Source of the DNA: Armatimonadota bacterium
GTDB taxonomy: Bacteria; Armatimonadota; Zipacnadia; Zipacnadales; UBA11051
DNA length: 64,000 bases
Direction of reading: 5' to 3'
Assembly: GCA_013178155.1 (NCBI GenBank)
Contig: JABLXH010000002.1
Coordinates: forward strand, 1-64,000
Shown here piece after piece: positions 22,957 through 26,192 of this stretch. A program made the translations under genes and the position numbers. Each line of letters begins with the position of its first letter. The first letter of the stretch is position 1. The notes beneath the pieces are model-generated. The model was given only the letters and a program-made list of their open reading frames with translations. It searched no databases and was not told the DNA's origin.

Positions 22957-23169
22957 AAGGAAAAAGCAGCCTGCCAGGCTGTGGGAGAGGGACCTGGCGG
23001 GCTGCTTTCCGCTCCTCCCATGCTACTTCGAAAAAGTGTGATCGGGAGAGCGGGGTGGTCTCTAGCTTGGGCGCAAGTCGAGGGGGCAGAGGGAGCTAGA
23101 GACCGCCTAAGGGTTGGGTGCGGGTAGAGCTCTGTCTAGAGTTTGGCCAGTATAGCTACACAACCCTAT
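22957..23169 (-). ncRNA. Candidate free-standing structured RNA, about 212 nt
   Basis: A strong promoter points left at 23176-23204, an intrinsic terminator ends at about 22960, and no protein gene lies between. The predicted RNA folds into (i) a 5' hairpin in which AGGGUUG pairs with CAACCCU, (ii) a perfect 11-bp helix GGUCUCUAGCU/AGCUAGAGACC at 23103-23056, (iii) a stem CCGCUC/GAGCGG extended by UCCC/GGGA, and (iv) the terminator. It lacks the conserved cores of SRP RNA, RNase P RNA and tmRNA as far as I can tell, and it does not obviously form the single long rod of 6S RNA. Identity unknown. Confidence 0.6.
22961..23008. terminator. Bidirectional intrinsic terminator
   Basis: AAAGCAGCC-GCCAGG pairs with CCTGGC-GGCTGCTTT. 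On the minus strand it is followed by TTTTT, ending the candidate RNA; on the plus strand TTT follows, ending the DegT gene. Confidence 0.8.
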
Positions 23170-23175
23170 GCGGCC

Positions 23176-23204
23176 ACTATAGCGACATCGGTCAGCTTTG
23201 TCAA
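23176..23204 (-). promoter_or_regulatory. Consensus promoter for the orphan RNA
   Basis: TTGACA (23204-23199), a 17-base spacer and TATAGT (23181-23176) on the minus strand. It is one of the best sigma-70-type matches in the window. The start is near A23169. No protein gene follows it. Confidence 0.82.
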
Positions 23205-23255: not shown

Positions 23256-23284
23256 AAAAAGGGGAGTTCCGGTTGGAACTCCCC
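23256..23284 (-). terminator. Intrinsic terminator after rpsE
   Basis: On the minus strand GGGGAGTTCC pairs perfectly with GGAACTCCCC across AACC, followed by TTTTT. It separates rpsE from the orphan RNA promoter, so the RNA is not simply an rpsE 3' tail. Confidence 0.92.
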
Positions 23285-23315: not shown

Positions 23316-24023
23316 CTACTCGTCTTCGTCGGCCTCGTCGTCCAGGGTGTCGTCGTAGCGCGGAGCGACGGCTCGCGGGGTGGCCTCTTCCGGCTCTTCG
23401 GTGGCATAGGGGTCCTCGACGGCTCGGCCCAACATGTCCATGACACTGAAGCCACGGGCTTCCGCGACTTCGCGGGGGGTCCGCAGCAGGGTCAGGGCCT
23501 TGAAGCAGGCCTTGGCGCGGTTGAAGACATTGCCGCTGCCCAGCGACTTGGTGAGAATGTCACGGATGCCGCTGACCTCGATAATCTGACGGGTGGCGCC
23601 ACCGGCGATGATGCCGGTTCCGCGGGAGGCGGGTTTGAGCAGAATGACCGCGCCGCCCACCTTGGCCGTCACCTCATGGGTGATGGTGTACCCGTCCATC
23701 GGCACGCGGATCATCGTCTTGCGCGCCCGGTTCAGGGCCTTGGCGATCGCTTCCGGCGCATTGCGCGCCTTGCCCACGCCAAGGCCGACGTTTCCCTTCC
23801 CGTCGCCGACAGCCACCAGCACGCGCGATGAGGAGATGCGCCCGCCTTTGACCGTCTTGCGGGTGCGGTCAATGCGCACGACACGCTCCTGCAGCTCGGA
23901 GCCTTCCTCCTGCTCAACCTGCGGTCGGGGCCCTCGGGAGCCGCGCGACCCGCCTGGCCCTCCTGGTCCGCCCGTCTGGCGCGAACCTCGCTGTGTGCGC
24001 TGCTGTCTTGGGTTGTACGCCAT
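23316..24023 (-). CDS. rpsE: Ribosomal protein S5 (solitary gene)
   Basis: Small-subunit protein of 235 residues, needed for decoding accuracy and 30S assembly. The double-stranded-RNA-like N-domain (ERVVRIDRTRKTVKGGRI, VGDGKGNVGLGVGKA) and C-domain (GGAVILLKPASRGTGIIAGG) are fully conserved. Unusually it has about 45 extra Gly/Arg/Gln-rich residues in front and an acidic tail of about 35 residues. It lies alone with its own promoter and terminator, not between rplR and rpmD of the spc operon. ATG at 24023. Confidence 0.95.
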   Translation of the reverse strand: MAYNPRQQRTQRGSRQTGGPGGPGGSRGSRGPRPQVEQEEGSELQERVVRIDRTRKTVKGGRISSSRVLVAVGDGKGNVGLGVGKARNAPEAIAKALNRARKTMIRVPMDGYTITHEVTAKVGGAVILLKPASRGTGIIAGGATRQIIEVSGIRDILTKSLGSGNVFNRAKACFKALTLLRTPREVAEARGFSVMDMLGRAVEDPYATEEPEEATPRAVAPRYDDTLDDEADEDE

Positions 24024-24082
24024 CCCAGCTCGTCTCCCTGAAAACTTACTGGCCTCCCCAGAGGCGGGAGGCGCGGACCGAT

Positions 24083-24111
24083 AGCTTAGCATATCAGTGT
24101 GCCTCTGTCAA
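24083..24111 (-). promoter_or_regulatory. rpsE promoter
   Basis: TTGACA (24111-24106), 17-base spacer, TAAGCT (24088-24083). It lies back to back with the ilvD promoter; the two -35 boxes are 26 bases apart. Confidence 0.8.
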
Positions 24112-24137: not shown

Positions 24138-24166
24138 TTGACGCTGTGCAGACGCGGGGCTATACT
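24138..24166 (+). promoter_or_regulatory. Promoter of the T-box-ilvD transcript
   Basis: TTGACG, 17-base spacer, TATACT. Transcription should start near 24173, immediately before the T-box stem I. Confidence 0.88.
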
Positions 24167-24172
24167 GAGTTA

Positions 24173-24441
24173 CACAACCTGGTGACGCATGGCTATGATG
24201 GGGAGGAGTAAGCGGGAGGCTTGAGCCACAGAGAGCCGGCGAAGTGCTGAGAGCCGGTGCCGAGCCCCCGCTGAACGTCGCCTCGGAGCCGCGACCGCGA
24301 ACGGTGTGAGCCTACTAGCGGTCGCCGGGTGCGCCCGCTACAGCGCCAGAGGGTCGCTCCGGATCGCGGGGCGGAACTTGGGTGGTACCGCGAGAAGCGC
24401 CCATTGGGGCCTCTCGTCCCATGGTGGACGAGAGGCCCTTT
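24173..24441 (+). promoter_or_regulatory. T-box riboswitch leader, valine specifier (GTC)
   Basis: Canonical transcriptional T-box. AGTA at 24207-24210 and GAAC at 24273-24276 form the loop-E part of the specifier loop. AGCGGG/CCCGCT closes the helix above it, and GAGG/CCTC the helix below. The codon in the specifier position is GTC (24277-24279), so uncharged tRNA-Val(GAC) is predicted to bind. CAGAGAGCCGG and GCTGAGAGCCGG form the distal stem I motifs. The T-box sequence GGTGGTACCGCG is at 24381-24392. When tRNA-Val is uncharged the antiterminator forms and ilvD is read. Confidence 0.93.
24407..24441 (+). terminator. T-box-controlled intrinsic terminator
   Basis: GGGCCTCTCGTCC pairs with GGACGAGAGGCCC, followed by TTT. 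Its 5' flank competes with the antiterminator bearing the T-box sequence. This is the off state when tRNA-Val is charged. Confidence 0.9.
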
Positions 24442-24530
24442 ATGTATGCCTGGGGCTGGCGGCGCAAGCCACCCCTATCTGTGGTTTCGGAGCTCTGGTG
24501 GTCTTACCAGGCTTACGCAGGAGGCGAGAG

Positions 24531-26192
24531 ATGAAGAAGTACAGTGGTCCAGTGGTCGAAGGCCTGACGCGAGCGCCCTCGCGGGCGCTGCTGTACGCTT
24601 GTGGGTATACAAAGCGCCAGCTCATGGAGAAGCCGTTTATTGGCATCGCGAACGCTTACAGCGACGTGGTGCCCGGCCATATCGGTCTCAACCAACTGGC
24701 ACGTTCGGTGGAACAGGGCATTGCCGCTGGCGGGGGCGTGCCGATGAACTTCGGCATTCCTGCCATCTGTGACGGGGTGGCGATGGGGCACGCGGGCATG
24801 TTCTACTCACTGCCGAGCCGTGAGCTGATCGCTGACAGCGTGGAGAGCATGGCCCGCGCGCACGGCTTTGATGGCCTCGTGCTGTTGACCGACTGCGACA
24901 AGATCACCCCCGGGATGCTGATGGCGGCCGGGCGACTGGACATTCCGGCCATCGTGGTGACCGCCGGCCCGATGCTGACGGGGCGGTACCAGGGTCGGCG
25001 CCTGGACCTGGTGCGGGACACCTTCGAGGCCGTGGGGCGGGCTCAGGCCGGTGTCATCAGCCCGGAGGAACTGGAGGCGCTGGAGGTCGAGGCCTGCCCC
25101 GGGTGCGGGTCCTGTCAGGGGCTTTACACCGCCAACACCATGCAGTGCCTGACCGAGGCCATGGGCATGAGCCTCCCCGGCTGCGCCACGGCGCTGGCTG
25201 GCATGGCCCGCAAGGCCCGGATCGCCCAGGAATCGGGTGAGCGCATCGTGGGGATGGTGCGAGAGGACCTGACACCGCGCAAGATCATGACCCGAGCAGC
25301 CATCCGCAACGCCATCCGTATGGATATGGTGTTGGGCGGGTCCACCAACACGACCCTGCATATCCCGGCCATCGCCCATGAGGCAGGCGTGGACATCGCT
25401 TTGGAGGAGTTTGACGAGCTCTCCCGGGTGACCCCGCAGCTTTGTCACATTCGTCCGTCAGGCGACCACTTCATGGAGGACCTGGAGTGGGCTGGTGGCA
25501 TCCCGGCGGTGCTTAACGTCATCCAGGACATGCTGGAAGACAACATCACCTGCAGCGGGGAGATGATCAGCGCCATCGCGGCGCGGGGCGTTGTCACTGA
25601 CCCTGAGGTCATTCGGCCGCTGGACAAGGCCTACCGACCCGAGGGCGGGATCGCCATTCTCAGGGGAAACCTGTGCCCGGATGGCGCAGTGGTCAAGCAG
25701 TCGGCGGTGAGCGAGCGCATGCGCCAGTTCCGGGGCCCGGCGGTCTGCTTCGACAGCGAGGAGGCAGCGATGCAGGCCATCCTGGACGACAGGATCCCCG
25801 ATGGGTCCTGGTGCGTGGTGCGGTTCGAGGGGCCCAAGGGCGGACCGGGCATGCGTGAGATGCTCAACCCGACCGCGGCCCTGGCGGGCATGGGCAAGAC
25901 CGACAAGGTGGCCCTGCTGACCGACGGTCGCTTCTCGGGCGGCACGCGTGGTCCGTGCATCGGACACGTGTCACCCGAAGCCGCCGAGGGGGGCCTGATT
26001 GGCCTCATCCAGGACGGTGACCTGATTGAGGTGGACCTTGATGCGCGGCAACTCAATCTGCTGGTGGACGAGGCAGAACTGGCGCGACGGCGAGCGAGCT
26101 GGGTGCCGCCGGCGCCGAAGGTCAAGACCGGCTGGCTGGCCAGATATGCCCGAAACGTGACCAGTGCGGGCAAGGGTGCGGTGATGGCCTGA
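24531..26192 (+). CDS. ilvD: Dihydroxy-acid dehydratase
   Basis: Dehydrates 2,3-dihydroxy-isovalerate and -3-methylvalerate in valine and isoleucine synthesis; 553 residues. Iron-sulfur Cys residues lie in [12 protein letters not shown] and ACPGCGSC. At the place where [2Fe-2S] enzymes have PCN the sequence reads VVPGHIG, as in E. coli, which points to an oxygen-sensitive [4Fe-4S] enzyme. The ATG at 24531 follows GGAGGCGAGAG; frame upstream is T-box leader, not protein. It is the first gene after the valine T-box. Confidence 0.96.

Follow-up and report, generated by a model that had tools for sequence, protein, structure and literature searches.

On the minus strand of the window, by which we mean the whole 64,000-nt stretch of Armatimonadota DNA analysed here, lies what is almost certainly a real, conserved and independent RNA gene. 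Its architecture, conservation and covariation, its lack of a reading frame and its distinctness from 6S RNA, SRP RNA and all Rfam families are established computationally. The gene is vertically inherited. Its family is absent from Rfam 15; the kind of molecule, an autonomous structured small RNA, is already known. As to function, we tentatively favour, short of calling it probable, an autonomous trans-acting small RNA of an undescribed, order-restricted family whose C-rich loops may pair with ribosome-binding sites.

The RNA Gene and its Distribution

A first-pass annotation of the window had described an orphan structured RNA at this place, equipped with a promoter and a terminator of its own, and the comparison of 35 genomes supports that description. 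The locus comprises the following features.

23199-23204, minus strand: -35 box TTGACA, from the promoter-like site scan; an equivalent box stands at the same place in 35 of 35 homologues
23176-23181, minus strand: -10 box TATAGT after a 17-nt spacer, from the promoter-like site scan
22961-23169, minus strand: predicted non-coding transcript of ~208 nt (fold z = -5.24; models R1 and R2)
23133-23163, minus strand: 5' domain with conserved TTGTGTAG (23163-23156) and CTAGACA (23139-23133) and a possible hairpin, HP1, from the 35-sequence alignment
23057-23104, minus strand: hairpin HP2, predicted from the fold and 98% paired in nine f1/f6 sequences
23068-23086, minus strand: near-invariant C-rich loop motif CCCCCTCGACTTGCGCCCA, from homologue comparison; a looser C-rich form occurs order-wide
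23009-23053, minus strand: hairpin HP3, predicted from the fold, with compensatory changes in 6 of 7 modelled pairs and 67% of cells paired
22961-23008, minus strand: intrinsic terminator hairpin with C-rich loop CUCUCCCAC and T-tract (22965-22961), from the predicted fold and terminator scan, with compensatory changes
~23256-23284, minus strand: rpsE terminator, context outside the RNA gene, read directly as GGGGAGTTCC-AACC-GGAACTCCCC-TTTTT

The near-perfect promoter reported in the first-pass annotation was recovered at these coordinates; it matches 11 of 12 consensus bases and is the top promoter-like site within 5 kb, a region in which four such sites were found against 0.6 expected from shuffles. 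The transcript start near 23169 is placed from this promoter and the end near 22961 from the T-tract. The T-tailed terminator and the ~212 bases said to hold no plausible protein gene were likewise found, the sense strand of the RNA containing no open reading frame of at least 20 amino acids. Among the at least three hairpins claimed, the perfect 11-bp helix is present in HP2 (GGTCTCTAGCT at 23104-23094 with AGCTAGAGACC at 23067-23057), and two further hairpins are predicted.

A DNA search returned diverged copies in the host's own family, the copy in G001 at 71% identity, and a near-invariant 19-nt stretch (CCCCCTYGACTTGCGCCCA) led to copies in family f6, where it reads CCCCCTAGACTTGCGCCCA in four of four genomes, and in f2, where it reads CCCCCTTGGCAAGCGCCCA in three of three. 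The covariance model R1, built from 13 sequences (host family, f6 and f2), extended the homologue set into f3, f4 and f5. With R2, a second model built from 24 sequences, exactly one copy was detected in 35 of the 41 genomes of the host's order (six families), including all 19 high-quality genomes (completeness of 90% or more, contamination of 5% or less); completeness in the remaining six, which gave no match, is 76-90%. No R2 match at E <= 0.001 was obtained in 250 other Armatimonadota genomes. Of the weak R1 matches outside the order, those inspected lack a promoter and seem to be chance hits, and a weak R2 match in G044 also lacks a promoter and appears to sit in coding sequence.

The -35 box reads TTGACA or TTGACT in every one of the 35 homologues, and a TATAAT-like box follows 16-18 nt later in nearly all, the -10 box being poor in a few. 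As the promoter is absent from the models, its presence in the homologues represents an independent confirmation of the gene. The terminator stem ends 205-230 nt after the -10 box in 34 homologues and 263 nt after it in one, and the RNA length stays near 210 nt in nearly all. None of the three outcomes named beforehand as refuting an orphan RNA gene was obtained: the set of promoter, stem and terminator is kept in 35 genomes, no conserved protein frame lies inside the RNA, and no Rfam family is matched. That the locus is a small protein gene or an mRNA remnant is barely credible: short open frames do occur in some homologues, but they differ in place and length, and what is conserved are the loops and the helices with their compensating changes. 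Since a single copy is kept in nearly every genome of the order, the RNA probably fulfils an important regulatory task in the cells of these bacteria.

Relation to Known RNA Families

The first-pass annotation had been unable to match the RNA to SRP RNA, RNase P RNA, tmRNA or a riboswitch, and the covariance-model search against Rfam that was proposed as a check bears this out. At gathering thresholds, Rfam 15 gave no match at the locus or at twelve homologous loci, around which only tRNAs and a T-box were matched further off. Permissive thresholds yielded microRNA-type and other chance matches at the locus and none at six homologous loci. The RNase P, tmRNA and SRP (RF00169) models did not match at the locus, nor did the 6S model (RF00013) at the locus or its homologues. 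Our literature search returned no paper on noncoding or small RNA in Armatimonadota.

A very divergent version of one of the known housekeeping RNAs (6S, SRP, RNase P or tmRNA) would fit a single-copy, order-wide gene of nearly 6S size. We nevertheless regard it as highly improbable, given that even permissive thresholds gave no Rfam model match at window or homologues and that 6S and SRP RNAs are found elsewhere in the same genomes. In the host, the 6S RNA gene lies on another contig (G000:C201, 59 bits) and the SRP RNA gene also lies elsewhere (G000:C173, 64 bits). The divergent 6S RNA that the first-pass annotation had kept in play is unlikely because of this separate 6S gene.

Fold, Covariation and Competing Helices

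For the segment between ~23169 and 22957 the predicted folding energy is -85.4 kcal/mol, compared to -62.4 +/- 4.4 kcal/mol for 200 dinucleotide shuffles, none of which is equally stable. Predicted folds consist of separate hairpins with the terminator at the end, and show no long rod with a central bubble. With the terminator removed, z is -2.75 in the host and -1.6 as the family median, which is only moderately better than shuffles, so that the structural case rests on covariation.

Aligning the homologues and examining their stems for covariation, a further proposed check, revealed compensatory changes in the terminator, HP3 and HP2. On the 35-sequence alignment, which is fitted to the terminator and HP3 helices and thereby somewhat favours them, 85.6% of the cells of these two helices are paired against 67.5% in shuffles, and the covariation score of 0.585 (shuffles 0.228) was reached by none of 500 shuffles and peaks sharply at register zero. 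The terminator hairpin carries compensatory changes in 10 of 11 pairs, as expected in any gene with a terminator. HP2 lies outside both models and was tested on a hand alignment of the nine f1/f6 sequences that leans towards the helix; there it shows double changes at 9 of 15 positions and a paired fraction that none of 2000 shuffles attained. Its arms pair at -22.9 kcal/mol with their own partners and at -17.7 kcal/mol across families. The 5' segment UUGURYARG...CYUANACA, by comparison, is conserved in sequence. Selection acts on both sequence and pairing.

Two other pairings were set aside. HP1 within the 5' segment is weakly supported, and the RNAalifold pairing of GGGUUGUA with UUGCGCCC involves near-invariant columns in f1/f6 and is impossible in f2.

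The 3' strand of HP2 has two potential partners. In helix B it forms HP2 itself, whereas in helix A it pairs with the 5' domain, so that both helices compete for one strand. In f2 and in several genomes of f3, the strand pairs with the 5' domain instead, or nearly as well, which indicates that its partner strand changed in evolution. Helix A is the predicted form in G017, and the two helices are close to balance in G018. Helix B is favoured over helix A by ~10 kcal/mol in the host; with such a gap we discarded a conformational switch, and the pattern looks like lineage divergence. The earlier observation that CTCTAG occurs three times and allows alternative folds can be refined: the RNA holds CUCUAG twice and its complement CUAGAG once, and the corresponding alternative fold is ~10 kcal/mol worse in the host.

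Genomic Context

The location beside rpsE, as first annotated, is correct for the window genome but is not conserved among the homologues; apart from the window genome, rpsE adjoins the RNA gene solely in G011, and there convergently. It is an incidental neighbour. The rpsE terminator claimed just upstream of the RNA gene is visible by direct reading of the sequence, while the terminator scanner did not report it. The rpsE gene is usually found inside a ribosomal protein operon. Here it stands alone with its own terminator (23316-24092, minus strand), flanked by the RNA gene on one side and a divergently oriented ilvD T-box on the other. This T-box leader (RF00230, 104.6 bits, 24186-24424, plus strand; region 24138-26192) is equipped with a promoter-like site of its own (TTGACG-17-TATACT) and with a hairpin resembling a terminator (24406-24439). 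Behind it lie genes for an ilvD-type dehydratase and for a TPP enzyme, the latter probably ilvB.

Common neighbours of the RNA gene are found mainly within families, on either strand, and differ between families, which argues for an autonomous gene acting in trans that has no cis target. A cis-acting, riboswitch-like leader or attenuator of the downstream gene, with the terminator as its output, would account for an RNA that ends in a terminator and for the two possible partners of the HP2 3' strand in some genomes. It would also suit the six f5 genomes (loci L138, L139, L141, L142, L145 and L146) in which members of one protein family (280-326 aa) are encoded downstream on the same strand, 35-222 nt away. 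In the window, however, the downstream gene encodes a DegT-type aminotransferase and is convergent to the RNA gene, downstream genes vary in identity and strand between families, and the energy gap between the two folds in the host is large. We consider a leader very improbable and close to refuted. In G003 and G004 the RNA gene is followed by a co-oriented tRNA gene (L091:2705-2780 and L092:2665-2740, both minus strand).

Proposed Mode of Action

The conserved unpaired segments of the RNA are rich in C. The HP2 loop contains GCCCCCU or GCCUCC in most members, with GCRCCCA beside it, and the terminator loop contains CUCCC or GCCCC in most families outside f5; the host's HP2 and terminator loops carry GCCCCCU and CUCCC, respectively. 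A Shine-Dalgarno core is complementary to CCUCC. Hfq was found in 27 of the 41 genomes of the order, and none was detected in the members searched of f2, f4 and genus g10 of f3, whose genomes are incomplete. The RNA gene is kept in these groups, which means that Hfq would not in general be required for any pairing.

By analogy with 6C/B11, chaperone-independent pairing of the loops with G-rich ribosome-binding sites appears the most likely mode of action. The RNA gene would be transcribed from its housekeeping sigma-type promoter and the transcript ended by the intrinsic terminator; the RNA would then fold into the 5' domain, HP2 with its near-invariant C-rich motif, HP3 and the terminator hairpin. 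The exposed C-rich loops of HP2 and the terminator could base-pair with G-rich ribosome-binding regions in several mRNAs and thereby reduce their translation, with no need for Hfq. A precedent is B11 of Mycobacterium abscessus, which represses a G-tract mRNA via either of two C-rich loops (PMC10470900), and the title of a 6C paper cited there speaks of action independent of RNA chaperones. We rank loop pairing first on account of the C-rich loops, the B11 precedent and the retention of the RNA where Hfq was not detected. Against it stand conservation over many segments, beyond what loop pairing alone needs, the absence of a CCYCC loop from six f3 genomes and one f5 genome, the modest family-wide stability of the terminator-free fold, and the judgement of Hfq absence from incomplete genomes.

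The ribosomal RNA itself was rejected as a target. The motif GACUUGCGCCC is complementary to a 16S helix-15 sequence, GGGCGCAAG...; at this place, however, the 16S genes of the host and its relatives have GGGCGAAAGCC or a similar sequence, and exact complementarity to 16S is at its longest little better than the identity control.

The same spread of conservation, together with the several genomes that have no CCYCC loop, places second, and close behind, in our ranking a housekeeping or global RNA that binds a protein machine (RNA polymerase as for Ms1 and 6S, the ribosome or an RNA-binding protein) and does not pair with mRNAs. The conserved unpaired segments, which occur in both the 5' domain and HP2, would then be protein contacts, and members without the CCYCC loop keep the rest of the molecule. 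One copy per genome throughout the order, a strong, constitutive-looking promoter and near-constant length would all suit such a role. The same genome encodes a genuine 6S RNA, though, no central-bubble rod is predicted and no Rfam family matches, and the C-rich loops in HP2 and the terminator suggest pairing; we therefore regard protein binding as possible but doubtful. Still less likely seems its more specific form, an order-specific housekeeping RNA of a new class that would bind RNA polymerase or the ribosome next to 6S and SRP RNA and whose core 3' strand would exchange its partner depending on lineage.

Significance and Comparison with Known Systems

The two covariance models could seed a new Rfam entry, and the family hints that poorly studied lineages possess their own conserved RNAs, which the catalogues lack. 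Under the favoured loop-pairing reading, retention of the gene where Hfq was not detected offers a test case for chaperone-independent RNA regulation.

Among described systems, 6S RNA (RF00013) is of similar size, encoded by one gene per genome and widely conserved. The Armatimonadota RNA differs from it in lacking a predicted central-bubble rod, in having its own intrinsic terminator within the conserved unit and in giving no match to the 6S model. Ms1 of Actinobacteria is likewise a lineage-restricted, autonomous structured RNA with extra hairpins. Ms1, ~300 nt long, binds core RNA polymerase and possesses a central bubble resembling that of 6S (PMC9130861), whereas no central-bubble fold is predicted for the RNA described here. 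The 6C and B11 RNAs of Actinobacteria belong to another phylum and match neither in sequence nor by covariance model. 6C RNA is shorter than ~208 nt, and we know of no counterpart of HP3 or of the conserved 5' domain in 6C/B11. What they share with the Armatimonadota RNA is that a single gene occurs throughout the lineage and that the hairpin loops are rich in C.
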